From: a virus
Strand: one strand, 5' to 3'
Virus record (IMG/VR): IMGVR_UViG_3300030328_001490
Location: 1 to 23,202 of that record
DNA length: 23,202 bases
This document shows, one piece after another, positions 8,576 through 19,390 of the stretch. Numbering within the stretch: position 1 is the first letter of the stretch; every line of letters starts with the position of its first letter. Made by a program: the position numbers and the translations under genes. Under the pieces are notes generated by a model, which was given only the letters and a program-made list of their open reading frames with translations, had not been told where the DNA came from and ran no database searches.

Positions 8576-11047
8576 TTATGGATTGAATGATGCAGATCCT
8601 GTTGGATCAGAAGGGTTGAAAAAAGGTGTATTGAATGAAGATGAATTTATCCCTATCTCTAAAGCTCCAGTTTTCCAATTTCTTGTTCCATTAGTAGTTG
8701 TTGGATCGTTGTAATAAACTTGAACCCACTGGCCGTTCCATTCATCGTTTATTAAATTAAATGAACTTCTCATCATCATATATTTTTTACCATCTGAATC
8801 TTCTATTCTTGCGCATGGATTAACAAATTTTAATTTCGTACTTCCTGAAAAATATTTATCTACAGAAGATAAAGCTGTTGTTCCATTGAAAGTTAAAATT
8901 GTTTTACTTTGATTGCTTAAAATTTCTTCTCCAAGCAAAACTTGAATTTTAGTATCATAAGTTAAAGAACTCCAAACATAAACACTTCCATTCCATGTAT
9001 ATATTCCTTTTGCCCATTTTCCTAAAGGATTAACATATACCCAGTTTGCTCCATCGTAGACTTGCATAGTTGAATTTGTATCAGCTCCAGAACCATCTCC
9101 AAACATAGTAACTCCAACATCATATTCATAAGAATTATTTCCACTTTGTTGAACCTCTACTTCTTGCCCACTATTTCCAAAAGATATTCCTCCAGTTTTA
9201 ACAGGGACAAACATTGATTCAAAATAAGAATTTCCGTTTGGAAGATTTGTTATTGTATCTTCATAATCAAAAGCATAAAAAGTTGGCGTATATCCCCACT
9301 CTAAAGCAGTTCCTGCATAATTAGTTCCTCCATTTAAAGAATTATTATTATAAATTAATCCATGAGAATAAGCTGAATTTCCTTGTACATAAGCTTTCAT
9401 TGGCCTTGTTCTGTCATTATCATATTCTGTAAATGTATAGAATTGAAAATCCCAGTTACCTTCAAAAGCATCATCAGTAGGAATTAAATTATCTGTTAAA
9501 TTAGTTATACTATCTGTAGCACTATCAAACATATTAATAGAATGGTCATTACATCCCGCAGGAATTATTCTTGTATTTCTAACATACTGTTGGTTGTTAA
9601 GTAATGGGAACTCGTTTGTCATCCATTTTAACTGAGAAGCAGCTCCAGATGTAAATTTGTACAAAGTCATATTATCAGAATCCCCCCAAGCTGATGTTGA
9701 TGGTTTTGCTCTAATAGTCCATAAGCTACAAAAATATAAATCTGCATTAGAAGTATTGGTAAACGATAAAAATATTCTGCAAAGAAAACCAGCTAATAAA
9801 TTAGCATCGGTCATACTTATGATATTGTACTCTTGACCAGATTGAGAAAATTGTGTGTATTGATGTAAAGCGTTGTCTGTTGGCCATGCAGTAGGTAATC
9901 CAGAAACAGTATTGTGAGTTAAAAATAAAGGAAAACCATTAAAAAAGTTACCTCCAGCCATTTCAGCGTATGTAGTTTTTGTTCTTTTTATTGCAGGTAA
10001 AGATTCATATTGAGTTGTTGCTAATTTTTGTAAACCTCCCGCAGATGTTCCTGTTTCAATTACTTGATTATATAAAGAATAATTTTGTGATCCAAAATAA
10101 TTTCTATCTGTTCTTAGACCCCCATTGTAAAAAAATTCTCTTGTTGGAATGTTTATTGGAGTTGTATATGGAGCTACCCCTTGTTCATTTGTGTTATATT
10201 CTGAAACCTGAATAAAGTGAAAAGTATGTTCCCAGTAAAAAAATCTCATATTAAAAGCTCTGCAAATACTTAACAAAACACTGTAAGTGTTAGGAGGTTG
10301 ATATTCATTATCTTCAGAGGATTTATAAAAATCACTCATGTTAAGTTTTATTTGAGATAAAGGGCATTGTGCAGATTGTGGACCTATACCCATATCTTCA
10401 TTCCACCAATTAACAGCAGTTTGAATTACATAATTTTCTAATCCAGCTCCAGCGCTTGCTTCATCCGACTCTAAAACCATTCCAGTATCATTTAAAATCT
10501 CTGTAATCCAAGCAGTTGAAGATCCAATTATTCTTCTATAACCAGCATTTGCAAAAGTATCAGCTTTAACATAAGGAAAAGTTGGAGTTGCTCCAGTTGA
10601 ACTATTTGTTTCTCTCAAAAATGGAGTTTCTTTTAAACTTGCAATCCCATCCACAAAAACTAAAGTTGAAACGTAAGGATATGAAACGTCCTCTCTTATA
10701 TCTAAATTAGGTATTAAATAACCTGACCATAATAAACTTCCTGTACTTCCTACGTTTAACGTAACCCAAACATCCCTTTCTGCTCTTTCACTAAATCCAT
10801 TTACTTCGTTTTCTTGAGTTAAATTTTCAACTAATACATCAAGAGTAAGTTTGGATGCTAATATTGGTGAATTTTTATCTTGAACATCAGCTGACTCCCA
10901 GTCTAATTTTAATCCATTTGAAGCTAATTTATATTCAGATGAACCTCCTGAGTAAGTAGTCCAAATTCTAGCAGTGTAAGTTGTTCCATTAGCTGACTCT
11001 AAAGGAATAACTCTATAAATTTGTAATCCGTAAGCTGCTCTTGCCAT
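8576..11047 (-). CDS. Large tail-tip / baseplate hub-like protein (823 aa)
   Basis: The largest gene of the window. It follows the tape measure gene with a 1-base gap, where siphoviruses encode the distal-tail and tail-associated (Tal/hub) proteins. The N-terminus (MARAAYGLQIYRVIPLES, then a WTTYSGGSSEYKL block) is beta-rich; residues about 90-330 are a conserved-looking hub-like region with LLWSGYLIPNLDIRED, LLSICRAFNMRFFYWEHTF and a short loop YNTNEQG; the second half has many Gly, Ser, Asn and Tyr and looks like carbohydrate- or surface-contact beta domains. It probably forms the tail tip and contacts the host. No peptidase or lysozyme motif was noticed. Exact equivalence to Dit or Tal is not resolved. 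Confidence 0.65.
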   Translation of the reverse strand: MARAAYGLQIYRVIPLESANGTTYTARIWTTYSGGSSEYKLASNGLKLDWESADVQDKNSPILASKLTLDVLVENLTQENEVNGFSERAERDVWVTLNVGSTGSLLWSGYLIPNLDIREDVSYPYVSTLVFVDGIASLKETPFLRETNSSTGATPTFPYVKADTFANAGYRRIIGSSTAWITEILNDTGMVLESDEASAGAGLENYVIQTAVNWWNEDMGIGPQSAQCPLSQIKLNMSDFYKSSEDNEYQPPNTYSVLLSICRAFNMRFFYWEHTFHFIQVSEYNTNEQGVAPYTTPINIPTREFFYNGGLRTDRNYFGSQNYSLYNQVIETGTSAGGLQKLATTQYESLPAIKRTKTTYAEMAGGNFFNGFPLFLTHNTVSGLPTAWPTDNALHQYTQFSQSGQEYNIISMTDANLLAGFLCRIFLSFTNTSNADLYFCSLWTIRAKPSTSAWGDSDNMTLYKFTSGAASQLKWMTNEFPLLNNQQYVRNTRIIPAGCNDHSINMFDSATDSITNLTDNLIPTDDAFEGNWDFQFYTFTEYDNDRTRPMKAYVQGNSAYSHGLIYNNNSLNGGTNYAGTALEWGYTPTFYAFDYEDTITNLPNGNSYFESMFVPVKTGGISFGNSGQEVEVQQSGNNSYEYDVGVTMFGDGSGADTNSTMQVYDGANWVYVNPLGKWAKGIYTWNGSVYVWSSLTYDTKIQVLLGEEILSNQSKTILTFNGTTALSSVDKYFSGSTKLKFVNPCARIEDSDGKKYMMMRSSFNLINDEWNGQWVQVYYNDPTTTNGTRNWKTGALEIGINSSSFNTPFFNPSDPTGSASFNP

Positions 11048-13656: not shown

Positions 13657-14109
13657 CTATGAAGCAACAGTTTGTGTTAAAGCTCCAGTACCTTGAAAAG
13701 AAGCGCTAAATGTACTTGAATCTTCATTTGGTGCACTAAGACTAGCTGAAGTCATCCATACATCTCCAGTATATTTAGTATCACCAGTTGATGATGTTGT
13801 TACACCAAAAGTAACTGATGTTGTCACTCTTGTGTTTATCATAGTATCAAACAATTCACTTAAAGTTAATCCTCCTATTGCACTACCAGAAGCATCTAAC
13901 CAAGCATACATTGCATCAACTGAAACATCCCAGTTTCGATACCCTTCCATAGCACTTTCCCAACCACCATCTTCTTTATTTGATGTGCTTCTTGGGCTGT
14001 GGTTTATGTTTATTGTTGCGTTTGTTGCGTACGCTATTAAAGTTGCAGATCCTCCTGATGGAGTAATGTACACCTTTAAATCCGTCCCATTTAAAATTCC
14101 ATTTGCCAT
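13657..14109 (-). CDS. Major tail protein, TP901-1 type
   Basis: A 150-residue tail tube protein of the TP901-1-like family. The sequence opens MANGILNGTDLKVYI, has the usual first loop with IAYATNATININHS, the conserved WESAMEGYRNWDVSVDAMYAW region (the Trp and the SVD motif), and the C-terminal SAPNEDSSTFSASFQGTG strand pair. Rings of six such subunits stack to form the tube. Position between the tail terminator and the chaperone genes agrees. The strong hairpin behind the gene fits its need for high expression. Confidence 0.93.
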   Translation of the reverse strand: MANGILNGTDLKVYITPSGGSATLIAYATNATININHSPRSTSNKEDGGWESAMEGYRNWDVSVDAMYAWLDASGSAIGGLTLSELFDTMINTRVTTSVTFGVTTSSTGDTKYTGDVWMTSASLSAPNEDSSTFSASFQGTGALTQTVAS

Positions 14110-14139: not shown

Positions 14140-14364
14140 TTATTTTTGCTCTTCTTGAGCTTTTTTTGTTTTCGTTTCTTTTTTTACTTTCTTTTTTTCT
14201 GGTTCTCCATATCCATTTTCTAAAAACCAATCTATACCCTCTTGAGTAGTTGGAATTTTAACTCCAGAATTTAATATTTTCCCGTTTCTATTGTAATCCT
14301 TTTTTAATTCAAATTCATAAGTTTTAGAAACTGAATTATAATACTTATCATATTTTTCTGCCAT
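14140..14364 (-). CDS. Small structural-region protein with basic tail
   Basis: A 74-residue protein starting MAEKYDKYYNSVSK. The first about 50 residues look like a small domain (YEFELKKDYNRNGKIL, then IPTTQEGIDWFLENGYG), followed by a Lys/Glu-rich tail of about 20 residues that is probably disordered. The start at 14364 is chosen because it lies 4 bases after the preceding stop; an in-frame ATG at 14394 would overlap it by 26. Similar small proteins lie between the tail terminator and tail tube genes of Bacteroidota siphophages. No function is recognised. Confidence 0.55.
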   Translation of the reverse strand: MAEKYDKYYNSVSKTYEFELKKDYNRNGKILNSGVKIPTTQEGIDWFLENGYGEPEKKKVKKETKTKKAQEEQK

Positions 14365-14368
14365 TTTT

Positions 14369-14602
14369 TTATTCGTTTGTATCAATCCATCCATTATCTG
14401 GATTATTGATTATTTCTATTATTTCAGAATGAGAATATATTTTATCCCCACTTAAAAAATCTGGCACCTCTCCAATAAATTTAATTATTGTTTTAGTTCC
14501 ATCTAAATTATATCTTAATGTTGCTGCTGATGTTTCAATTACCTTTTGAAAATCAACTGAATCAACATAACTTTTTTCTATTATAACATACTTTTTTTCC
14601 AT
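14369..14602 (-). CDS. Hypothetical protein of the tail-completion region
   Basis: A 77-residue protein starting MEKKYVIIEKSYVDSVDF, with alternating beta strands (TLRYNLDGTKTIIKFIG) and a C-terminal helix (SHSEIIEIINNP). The start at 14602 lies 4 bases after the lectin-fusion stop; the in-frame ATG at 14620 is possible and would overlap by 14. It is part of the head-tail and tail cluster and probably a minor tail or neck component, but no family is recognised. Confidence 0.5.
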   Translation of the reverse strand: MEKKYVIIEKSYVDSVDFQKVIETSAATLRYNLDGTKTIIKFIGEVPDFLSGDKIYSHSEIIEIINNPDNGWIDTNE

Positions 14603-14606
14603 ATCT

Positions 14607-15695
14607 TTATTCTGGAACATCAGCTTGGAAGTCTGTTGATGTCATGTTAGTCATTGTTCCATCATTATTATTTGTGCTATCATCTGGTATTGTTGGATAA
14701 GTTGCGATTGGATCTCCAACTATTCCTCCATCTCCCATTTTCCAGTAACCAATCAAATTTGCTAAAGGAACAGGATTAAATGGAAGTCCATCATTGTATA
14801 AAGTGTTTACCTCTGTTGAACTTAATTCTTTATTAAATAAAGTAACTTCATCAATATTTCCAGCATAATAAGAAGATGAAACTCCACTACTTCCGATAGA
14901 AGCATAAACAGGAGTTCCAGTAAAAGTTCCAGATATTGCAGTAGTAGCTTTTAGAGTAGAGTCTAAATAAAGTTTAACATTCCCTGAGCTATTCCAAGTT
15001 CCTGAAATATGATGCCATAACCCATCATTTTCTATTGCATCAGTTAAAACAGCTGAATTTGGTGTTCCTCCAGCCCTATAAGTCATTCTTACTTCATTTG
15101 ATGCAGCATGATATAATAATTGTATTTGATTATTAGCATCAACTCTATAATTAATAAAATAACCGCTGCTATCCATTGTTGATAATTTTGCCCATAATGA
15201 GAAACTTCCAACAGATGTGTTTATTGTAGATCCACTTGAGTCAATATCAACATAATCATCAACTCCATCAAAATTAGTAGAGTATATATTATTGAAAGAA
15301 TTTATTATTCTAATATTAAAGTTTAATGATTTTCTATAAATACCATCACTTCCCGACATATCATCAAATACATCATCATATCCATCAAAATCAATTGATT
15401 GGATGTTTACAGCGTTATAAACTCCATTAACTCTATCTAATGCAGTTCTTATATAATTTGCAAGTTTTGAAGCTTCTGCATAAGTTTTACAATAAGCTGA
15501 AACCATAACAGTTGCGGTATCTAATAAAGCAACAGAATCTTTTTGTCCTTCTGGAGTATCAGTTGCAACATCATAAACAATAAAAGGAAAAGGAGATGTT
15601 TGTTTCATTACATTTGGAGCAATCCTTGTTCCTACCATTGACTCAACTGCAATGTTATCATGTAAAATTTTATATATTGCTTTACCTATTTCCAT
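14607..15695 (-). CDS. Tail terminator-like protein fused to a LamG lectin domain
   Basis: A 362-residue two-part protein. Residues 1 to about 132 match the DUF3168/tail-completion family (opening MEIGKAIYKILHDNI, then FPFIVYDVATDTPEGQKDS and the YAEASKLANYIRTALD helix), equal to the usual full length of that family. Residues about 137-305 are a concanavalin A/LamG-like beta-sandwich: FDGVDDYVDI, FSLWAKL, WHHISGTW, then NIDEVTLFNKELSSTEV, a standard Laminin_G_3 pattern. A further 55 residues end it, including IGYWKMGDG. The gene lies in the tail-terminator place, so the lectin would be presented at the neck. The tail-terminator half is inferred from place and pattern; the LamG domain is clear. 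Confidence 0.8.
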   Translation of the reverse strand: MEIGKAIYKILHDNIAVESMVGTRIAPNVMKQTSPFPFIVYDVATDTPEGQKDSVALLDTATVMVSAYCKTYAEASKLANYIRTALDRVNGVYNAVNIQSIDFDGYDDVFDDMSGSDGIYRKSLNFNIRIINSFNNIYSTNFDGVDDYVDIDSSGSTINTSVGSFSLWAKLSTMDSSGYFINYRVDANNQIQLLYHAASNEVRMTYRAGGTPNSAVLTDAIENDGLWHHISGTWNSSGNVKLYLDSTLKATTAISGTFTGTPVYASIGSSGVSSSYYAGNIDEVTLFNKELSSTEVNTLYNDGLPFNPVPLANLIGYWKMGDGGIVGDPIATYPTIPDDSTNNNDGTMTNMTSTDFQADVPE

Positions 15696-15696
15696 T

Positions 15697-16218
15697 TTAA
15701 TATGCGGCTCTTCCCCATTTTTTCATTCTTCTTAAATCTGCTTGTACTGCTTTAATATATATTTTTTCCGCTTCTGAAAATCCATCTGCTAAAACTACTG
15801 CATGTTTTTTATTCCAAGCTCTTTGCATAAAATCGTTTGGAGTTGTCATTCCTCCTCCTCTTTTTCTGTGTCCATATTCAACCCAAGCTCCATAGTAACC
15901 ACCCATATTTTTCTTAAATTTACCCTTAACTCTTGGTCCTATGTACGCTCCATGAACTCCTTTTTGTTTTGAAGCTCTTGTTCTGTAAAATTGTAGAGAT
16001 TTTTTTAATGTTCCTCTTGCAATTTTTAGTTTATTGTCTGGAGGATATACAACATCTTTTTTTGCAACTGGAGCTTCTGCAATTGCAGCATCTAACAATG
16101 GAACAGTAACCTTTTTCCAAAATCTTCCCCAAACCAAATCTTTTTTAACTCTATTAGGAAGCTGATTGAACATTTGACCAATCTCTTTTAATCCTTGAGC
16201 TTCAACAGTTACTCCCAT
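15697..16218 (-). CDS. HK97 gp10-like head-tail/tail completion protein
   Basis: A 173-residue protein of the HK97 gp10-like family. The N-terminus has the VEAQGLKEIGQMFNQLPNRV helix typical of the family, then APVAKKDVV and a loop rich in Lys and Arg, and a middle YYGAWVEYGHRKRGG block with the tyrosine-glycine-histidine motif shared by gp10 proteins. The C-terminus is basic. It would join the neck or the tail end. It abuts the lectin-fusion gene with a 1-base gap and shares one base with the adaptor gene upstream, so the neck genes are coupled. Confidence 0.88.
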   Translation of the reverse strand: MGVTVEAQGLKEIGQMFNQLPNRVKKDLVWGRFWKKVTVPLLDAAIAEAPVAKKDVVYPPDNKLKIARGTLKKSLQFYRTRASKQKGVHGAYIGPRVKGKFKKNMGGYYGAWVEYGHRKRGGGMTTPNDFMQRAWNKKHAVVLADGFSEAEKIYIKAVQADLRRMKKWGRAAY

Positions 16219-16547
16219 TAGTTGTTATCTTTTAATTTTGTTTCTATTTCTAAAAACTGTTCTCTTCCATCTATTTCTTTAATCCCATGTATAATATAAG
16301 TTTTTTCATTATATACTATTCTGTAAGTTCCTAAAATTGTAACTCCTAAATTTCTCACATAAAAAACTAAATCAGTTCCTTGAACTTGTTCTTGAGATTC
16401 TTCTTTTCTTCTGCTTGCTTTCCAATCTGCATGAGCCCATAAAGTATAAGCTGTTGCATAAACTTTTGTTTCTGCTCCATACCTATCTGTTGTATAAGTT
16501 GGAGATTTTACTTCAATACGTCTATCAAGCTGTCCTATACTTAACAT
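16218..16547 (-). CDS. Head-tail adaptor, SPP1 gp16-like
   Basis: A 109-residue protein of the phage head-tail joining family (SPP1 gp16 / HK97 gp7-like). It begins with the family pattern GQLDRRIEVKSPTYTTDRYGAE, has a WAHADWKASRRKE segment with the conserved Trp and basic patch, and ends in a beta strand pair (YRIVYNEKTYIIHGIKEI). It plugs or closes the connector between capsid vertex and tail. Overlap with the gp6-like gene is 7 bases. Confidence 0.9.
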   Translation of the reverse strand: MLSIGQLDRRIEVKSPTYTTDRYGAETKVYATAYTLWAHADWKASRRKEESQEQVQGTDLVFYVRNLGVTILGTYRIVYNEKTYIIHGIKEIDGREQFLEIETKLKDNN

Positions 16548-17119
16548 ACTTGTATTTTATACTGGTCTAATAAATATTGACTTGATAAAGGAAGTTCAGT
16601 TGCTGTTCTTCCTGTTATTACGCTCTGACGGTTTTCATAAAAATTTGCCAAAGTAATAAGTACAGCGGATTTTATTCCATCTGGCACATCTGATGAAGCC
16701 GTTCCATATCCAACTGTATATTTAACATGAACAGCGTTTATTCTATCTGCTAAATCGGGTAAAGTAGCATCTACTGCCAAACCAATTCTTGCAGGTTTTG
16801 AAACATTATCTAAAATGTAATTAGAAGATGCTAAAGTTTGTTCAGCATCATTAGTATCATAATACTTAATATGAGTAATTGATGATACTGGACTTTTATA
16901 AAGTGTATAAACTTCTAGCCAATTATCTGAATATTGTTCTACTACAGTATTTAAAAAATATTGATTAGTATAAATTTGACAAGACTCAGTTGCCGCTTTA
17001 ATTAAATTATCAATTAAAGTATCATCTGCCGTAGTATCAACTTTAAGAAAATCCTTAGCTTCAGCAGTTGTAAATAATGGAGTAGTTGATAAAGTAACTT
17101 CTTTTAGACTTCTATACAT
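16541..17119 (-). CDS. Head-tail connector, gp6-like
   Basis: A 192-residue protein of the gp6/gp15-like connector family: SLKEVTLSTTPLFTTAEAKDFLKVD, the second helix DTLIDNLIKAATESCQIYTNQYF, a central beta domain and the C-terminal helix AVLITLANFYENRQSV. In HK97-type phages this ring attaches to the portal after packaging. Its position directly behind the capsid gene and terminator is normal. The C-terminal GRTATELPLSSQYLLDQYK also fits the family. Confidence 0.9.
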   Translation of the reverse strand: MYRSLKEVTLSTTPLFTTAEAKDFLKVDTTADDTLIDNLIKAATESCQIYTNQYFLNTVVEQYSDNWLEVYTLYKSPVSSITHIKYYDTNDAEQTLASSNYILDNVSKPARIGLAVDATLPDLADRINAVHVKYTVGYGTASSDVPDGIKSAVLITLANFYENRQSVITGRTATELPLSSQYLLDQYKIQVC

Positions 17120-18451: not shown

Positions 18452-19390
18452 TTATTTTGTTCGTTTTATTAATTCTATTTTTAGTTTCGCCAACGAACGC
18501 GCTACTAAATCGTTTTCCTCCTCTTTTATTTCTTGTTTTTCTTTATACATTGCCAAACCTCTTTGAGCTACTATTAAATCAGAATCAGCTTGACTATATG
18601 CTGCATAAACTACAGGAGATACGTCATAAAGTCTATCTATAGAAGTTATAGTTCTAATATCATTACCTTCTTCATCTGTACTCCATTCATCTTCAGCAAC
18701 AGTAAAAGCAAATGAAGATTGTGTAATATTTCCATTTTTCATATTAATAGCAAGATCTTTTCCATAAGAAGTTTCTGGAATAGAAAATTCATATCTTAAA
18801 CCTTTTTCATCAACAGACAAGTCCAAAGTTCCAGTTGTACTTCTTGCAAGAATTAAATTCTGATCATGGTTAATTAATGCACGTACATCTGATTTTTCAA
18901 TAGTTTCTTGACTAATAGCAGTTGGAGAAATGTATTCATAGAAATTTCCGAGATTTTCGGATCTACTATTAAATATACTTCCATATCCAACAACCACTTC
19001 TTGGCCATCTTCTTTTGTTTCAAATCTGTTTTCAATGTTAAATAATCTTTTTTCCATAGTTATGTTATTAAATTTTTTATCCCAAACTCTTTTTTTATCT
19101 TCTTTTGCTAATGCTTCTTTTGCTTCCTCATGAGTATTAAATGGCATGTAATACACTTTTCCATCTATTGTATGTTCATGATAACCTGTTCCTCCTAATT
19201 TTTCAGCTTCTTTTTCTGCTTCCTCAATTGTATCAAATACTGGTAATTCTATTCCATCACTAATAATTGTTCCAACTTGATCTCTGTAATAATCTTCATT
19301 GTCTTTTTCAGCTTCTAGCTTTGTATCATATTTACAAGCTCCAGTTGCTCCCCACTTCCATTTTCCGTTATTACATTCTTCAGCTGGCAT
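18452..19390 (-). CDS. Prohead protease (S78) with N-terminal extension
   Basis: A 312-residue protein. Residues about 112-260 are the HK97 prohead protease: EKRLFNIENRFE opening, the GYGSIFNSRSENLG block, the His in ALINHD (H175), the Ser in QSSFAF (S225/S226) and LYDVSPVVYAAY with D256. This serine protease trims the capsid delta domain and itself. The first about 111 residues are extra: a C-containing start with GKWKWGATGACKYD, an acidic helical part and a YHEHTIDGKVYYMP plus H87 segment of unknown role. An in-frame ATG at residue 112 would give a protease of normal length, but the extended frame overlaps the portal gene by 11 bases, as other pairs here do. A C-terminal coiled coil follows. 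Confidence 0.88.
   Translation of the reverse strand: MPAEECNNGKWKWGATGACKYDTKLEAEKDNEDYYRDQVGTIISDGIELPVFDTIEEAEKEAEKLGGTGYHEHTIDGKVYYMPFNTHEEAKEALAKEDKKRVWDKKFNNITMEKRLFNIENRFETKEDGQEVVVGYGSIFNSRSENLGNFYEYISPTAISQETIEKSDVRALINHDQNLILARSTTGTLDLSVDEKGLRYEFSIPETSYGKDLAINMKNGNITQSSFAFTVAEDEWSTDEEGNDIRTITSIDRLYDVSPVVYAAYSQADSDLIVAQRGLAMYKEKQEIKEEENDLVARSLAKLKIELIKRTK

Follow-up and report, generated by a model that had tools for sequence, protein, structure and literature searches.

The window analyzed here, the 23,202 bases of IMG/VR virus record IMGVR_UViG_3300030328_001490, codes for a phage tail terminator with a lectin-like LamG domain fused to its C terminus, followed directly by a gene for a 77-residue partner protein. 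The LamG part is fast changing and exchangeable, and together with its partner it suggests a mobile sugar-binding attachment module. We judge it moderately probable that the fused LamG is a surface-displayed, exchangeable glycan-binding (adhesin) module, that each neck bears about six of these domains, and that the partner acts as their helper or companion.

A tail terminator fused to a LamG domain

The fused gene (14607 to 15695, minus strand) is one uninterrupted, ATG-started frame of 362 codons, and its product matches PHROG 347, "tail terminator," with an E value of 1e-48. Residues 5 to 130 match PF11367 Tail_completion_gp17 (E = 1.8e-8; 35.0 bits against a cutoff of 24.5), and residues 143 to 297 match PF13385 Laminin_G_3 over the full length of the profile (E = 1.8e-20; 74 bits against a cutoff of 27.6). 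An AlphaFold2 (AF2) model of the whole protein, built with an alignment of relatives as input, has a mean pLDDT of 85 and a pTM of 0.65 and presents an alpha/beta terminator domain, a beta-sandwich, and a C-terminal tail in that order, with pLDDT mostly between 86 and 97 across the sandwich (residues 141 to 290). The nearest PDB folds found with Foldseek are pentraxin, neurexin LNS, laminin LG, and CBM40 or other carbohydrate-binding domains (E of about 1e-8), and the E values and the predicted fold together rule out chance domain matches. The linker (residues 131 to 140) is short, no long helix joins the two domains, and the model leaves their relative orientation unset because of the pTM and a linker pLDDT of 66 in the monomer.

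The fusion of a terminator with a lectin-like sandwich, as described in the initial annotation, is thus confirmed. That the N-terminal 132 residues are a complete terminator is best shown by a sister group of phages (loci L062 to L080), in which a bare 136-residue homolog, 54 to 58% identical, ends a few residues from where LamG would start; the concanavalin-like nature of the C-terminal part follows from the PF13385 match and the pentraxin- and LG-like folds.

Table 1. Features of the neck region and of the fused gene
Feature	Coordinates	Strand	Evidence
Head-tail adaptor Ad1	16541..17119	-	PF05135 (E 2.2e-9), PHROG 442 (E 3e-25)
Head closure protein Hc1	16218..16547	-	PF05521 (E 2.1e-13)
Neck1 / tail completion protein	15697..16218	-	PHROG 5 (E 2.6e-6)
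Tail-terminator domain, residues 1-132	15300..15695	-	PF11367, PHROG 347, bare homologs in same gene position
LamG / concanavalin-type beta-sandwich, residues ~133-305, exchanged core	14781..15299	-	PF13385, AF2, PDB folds
Pfam match segment of LamG, residues 143-297	14805-15269	-	PF13385
Conserved C-terminal tail of LamG gene, residues 306-362	14610..14780	-	GYWKMGDG...NNNDGTMTNM..ADVPE
Partner protein, 77 aa (MEKKYVII...)	14369..14602	-	Start codon 4 bases past LamG stop
Major tail protein	13657..14109	-	PF06199 (E 5e-11), PHROG 1407 (E 1.5e-23)

The gene order of the window is the classic siphophage neck order (Table 1): adaptor, Hc1, and Neck1 lie upstream of terminator-LamG, and two small genes and then the major tail protein gene lie downstream. 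A PF11367/PHROG 347 gene occupies the place between Neck1/head closure and the major tail protein in the window and in its relatives. Homology and this gene order point to a neck position for the terminator-LamG protein, with residues 1 to 132 predicted to form the ring atop the tail.

A scan of viral contigs gave 139 relatives, 80 of which were kept, so that the counts given here are lower bounds. At least 56 uncultured viral contigs (L001 to L056) with 43 metagenome identifiers cross the junction in frame, and every one that is long enough has the identical order of portal/adaptor, Hc1, Neck1, terminator-LamG, partner, and major tail protein; the loci compared are not mutually independent. 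The initial annotation had raised the concern that the fusion might stem from a mistake in assembly or a frameshift at about residue 132 and had proposed a search for further examples. The 56 contigs with their 43 identifiers and in-frame junctions answer both, ruling out such an error.

The bare-terminator loci keep the neck gene order unchanged. Relocation of LamG elsewhere in these phages was considered and rejected, as no PF13385 match was found in 12 bare-terminator records (fragments of up to 29.7 kb); nor did these fragments yield a partner homolog, in a search that had no built-in positive control. In a local profile search of the fetched loci, 51 from the range L001 to L057 have a partner match and none of 19 bare loci does; the six others of that range (L045, L047, L050, L053, L056, and L057) break off before reaching the end of the partner gene. 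Since the sister group manages with bare terminators, LamG is an add-on, and every sampled member of the window's clade keeps it. A single origin of the fusion, as opposed to repeated fusion, is compatible with a tree whose long branches make it unsafe and on which the fused and bare labels need two changes.

Block exchange of the LamG core

Among 39 fused sequences, the terminator part has a dN/dS of 0.10, LamG has 0.37, and the C-terminal tail has 0.25; all three parts are under purifying selection, LamG least so. Mean pairwise identity is 74% in the C-terminal tail versus 59% in the LamG core. In the comparison of the window with L016, dS is low in the flanking parts (Neck1, 0.06; terminator part, 0.12; partner, 0.07), as against a dN of 0.47 and a dS of 0.87 in LamG, and nucleotide identity runs at 91 to 98% up to codon 140, falls to 45 to 71% as far as codon 280, and then recovers. 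The same block pattern across terminator, LamG, and partner is seen with L002, L004, L008, L009, and others. We note a contrary case in L001, whose LamG is as near to that of the window as its flanks are; alleles are therefore shared across the clade. The high dS inside LamG indicates that divergent alleles were imported by recombination and did not arise by fast substitution only. The LamG core is replaced as a block between near-identical genomes; it behaves like a surface recognition domain, and recognition is the cause that we infer. The partner hardly changes across these swaps (dN of 0.01 to 0.03) and gives no sign of allele-specific contact with LamG.

The reading of the protein in the initial annotation as a lectin-bearing neck component therefore stands in two respects, the presence of the fusion in a conserved neck gene order across a phage family and the evolution of the lectin part in the manner of a surface-exposed domain; projection outward, polysaccharide binding, and an algal-polysaccharide-degrading host are putative.

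Several other genes deserve mention. The major tail protein and the 84-residue product of the gene before it (14140 to 14394) vary strongly among otherwise near-identical relatives, and the major tail protein is 73% identical to that of L002, with a dS of about 1.0. The sole very large gene after the tape measure codes for an 823-residue protein (8576 to 11047), which has a marginal PHROG match only and no match among cultured phages and is probably a tail-tip or receptor-binding protein. Between the portal and major capsid protein genes, a gene at 18452 to 19390 opens with the short motif MPAEECNNGKWKWGATGACKYD..., which also opens a different protein in L059 (5961 to 6977, MPCYECENGKWKFGQTGNCQYD...) with a 56% local match.

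A partner gene that accompanies LamG

The partner, for which the program-made open reading frame begins earlier, at 14620, matches no family in Pfam, PHROGs, or NCBIfam. Its AF2 model has a pLDDT of 90.8 and no match among PDB folds (best E of 0.64), and its fold matches uncharacterized viral models only. Among these is BFVD A0A7M3UP30, an uncharacterized protein of Pyramimonas orientalis virus, an algal giant virus (Foldseek E of 9.8e-5). The partner may represent a new protein family, possibly with a new fold.

The queries that gathered the 137 loci L160 to L296 were partner sequences and alignments and never LamG itself; two of these loci come from cultured phages. A LamG gene stands immediately upstream of the partner in 124 of the 128 cases in which the partner has an upstream neighbor, compared with 5 of 1,261 for other genes; the first figure is the share of partners preceded by LamG, not the share of phage LamG genes that have a partner, and many of the loci are near copies. 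Clustering of the upstream proteins at an 80% identity threshold leaves 54 groups, of which 51 have a PF13385 match and 23 a PF11367 match. L236 is an exception, with its LamG gene after the partner. LamG genes from other settings end in a C-terminal tail of the same kind, directly ahead of the partner. The partner is absent from 78 bacterial and archaeal LamG loci, and a natural LamG-partner fusion, which would be a direct sign of contact, was not present among the fetched loci. The initial annotation considered the fused protein by itself and overlooked this two-gene cassette, which is found in other virion contexts, as well as the joint absence of LamG and partner from the bare-terminator phages.

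These contexts are varied. LamG domains that have a partner gene are carried on tail terminators, including the deeply divergent ones of L231, L239, and L241, and in L197 (3026 to 4984) a 652-residue terminator protein has two tandem LamG domains, followed by the partner gene. In L240 (1449 to 4982), LamG forms the C terminus of a 1,177-residue protein encoded after the tape measure gene, in tail-tip position; by eye, the N-terminal part of this protein resembles the 823-residue protein of the window. A 160-residue carrier bears LamG in L160, L276, and L279 and is a separate gene in L265, and stand-alone LamG proteins with a partner are found in L058 to L061, L232 to L235, L237, and L268. The LamG of L160 (2653 to 4105), on its different 160-residue carrier, is followed by the partner gene of the window's family at 99% identity; L160 may be a real recombinant phage, or else its contig may be chimeric, and it carries no weight in the argument. 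The LamG-partner pair also occurs in unrelated phages, among them two cultured ones, cyanophage S-SKS1 and Flavobacterium phage immuto. Cyanophages S-H68, S-B05, and S-H9-2 have LamG without the partner, and so not every phage LamG needs one.

We lean, by a small degree, toward viewing LamG and the 77-residue partner as an adhesion cassette of general use among uncultured tailed phages, in which the partner is a dedicated companion and which is grafted, like a plug-in, onto available virion proteins. The terminator would be one of these, and a neck protein would have become a fast-evolving recognition site.

Display at the neck and alternative explanations

Terminators form a hexameric ring atop the tail tube and offer a surface for the head (PMC11784142). 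About six LamG domains would be expected at the neck because known terminators form such a ring, and by analogy the fused protein is likely a hexamer located there. By our own estimate, six LamG domains of about 19 kDa each are too big for the lumen of the tube and should therefore lie outside, presumably projecting outward. In the T5 terminator, however, the C terminus lies where subunits meet, and a tag attached to it is suspected to have folded into the lumen (PMC11784142), a placement that, by analogy, may count against outward display of a C-terminal LamG.

We propose that the roughly six LamG domains around the tail-neck ring would provide weak, multivalent attachment to host or environmental polysaccharide, supplementing the principal receptor-binding protein of the tail tip. 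Glycan binding by LamG is an assumption here. LamG folds also mediate protein-protein binding. Recombination between the conserved terminator part on one side and the conserved 3' end and partner gene on the other could swap the LamG cores. The partner would then serve LamG domains in general, most likely as an assembly helper (chaperone) or as a fixed companion subunit. It is constant under LamG swaps and follows LamG across carriers, in keeping with a helper whose target is common to these LamG domains and might be, for example, the conserved C-terminal tail. A marine phage adhesin is reported to require coexpression of the next gene (PMC7289586).

It is conceivable, though we think it unlikely, that LamG recognizes targets other than the host, such as environmental particles, gels, or released polymers, or that it varies to escape an agent that targets the virion. 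Rapid exchange of a surface lectin would be equally expected in that case, and no host receptor is known for this phage family. Host searches gave one weak match for the terminator among 400 genomes of the Mangrovimonas family and, for the portal among 396 genomes from the wider phylum, matches in 12 at 19 to 36% identity, and the closest cultured relatives of the head genes point to no host. The LamG on the tail-tip-position protein of L240, however, fits host contact better.

Somewhat more doubtful is a structural role, with LamG reinforcing the neck or acting as an assembly checkpoint against the stopper, portal, or capsid vertex and not serving as an adhesin. Retention of the fusion throughout the sampled clade and the purifying selection on LamG agree with such a role, and myophage terminators with extra sheath-contacting domains are known (PMC11784142). 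A buried contact should covary with its neighbors, however, and LamG is swapped while terminator and partner stay near-identical; moreover, relatives manage without LamG, and the same LamG type is borne by unrelated carriers, including the tail-tip-position protein. Least probable of all is that LamG is clipped off after assembly, with the partner a processing or quality-control factor active during assembly only: small genes directly after structural genes are often assembly factors (as in the chaperone case of PMC7289586) and the partner does stay conserved under LamG exchange, but there is no evident cleavage site, conservation extends to the C-terminal tail, and allele exchange should not diversify a domain that every virion discards.

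If the adhesin reading is correct, recognition of hosts or surfaces by a group of uncultured phages would reach beyond the tail tip, and a core neck protein that is otherwise highly conserved would have turned into a site of hypervariable display. In phages with mostly "hypothetical" structural genes, the partner gene would serve as a simple sequence marker of LamG adhesins, and it raises the question of chaperone versus virion subunit for a family without a known function or fold.

Comparison with known systems

The terminator domain, its gene position, and its size are like those of the PHROG 347/PF11367 proteins of the SPP1 gp17 and lambda gpU type. The PHROG 347 profile, with 394 columns, spans both terminator and LamG, and the LamG of L160 alone matches columns 126 to 394; the architecture is therefore already present in the database, uncommented and named only "tail terminator." To our knowledge, and from PMC11784142, SPP1 gp17, lambda gpU, and T5 p142 are without a lectin domain. 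No report of a LamG-terminator fusion was found in the open literature, which leaves out most subscription journals.

Sugar-binding modules at the siphophage neck have a precedent in the neck passage structure (NPS) of lactococcal 936 and TP901-1 phages, which is likewise variable and is nonessential in TP901-1; the NPS of 936 phages carries carbohydrate-binding modules, with binding shown for one (PMC6669499). The NPS, however, is a separate collar-and-fiber protein with coiled coils near the portal and adaptor, whereas here a LamG fold sits on the terminator ring with a dedicated gene downstream. The fused protein thus falls outside the NPS definition of a separate gene with a BppU-like N-terminal ring domain and a coiled-coil fiber, as LamG is attached by a short linker. 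The tail-tube protein TpeX and evolved Dit are similar in that a core tail protein gains an optional glycan-binding module (PMC6669499), although those modules are BppA-like and are placed on the major tail protein or Dit rather than on the terminator, and we found no report of a partner gene beside them.

For the partner, the closest parallels are T4 gp37-gp38 and gp26-gp27 of Alteromonas phage V22, in which a small gene directly follows an adhesin gene and is kept together with it. The LamG partner likewise stands next to LamG and is kept with it, both being absent from the 12 bare-terminator records. Unlike in those pairs, it matches no chaperone family or fold in Pfam, PHROG, NCBIfam, or the PDB, and its helper role is putative. 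We would group the terminator-LamG protein with the tail and neck proteins already known to bear an optional glycan-binding module, and the partner family is the newest part of the system.
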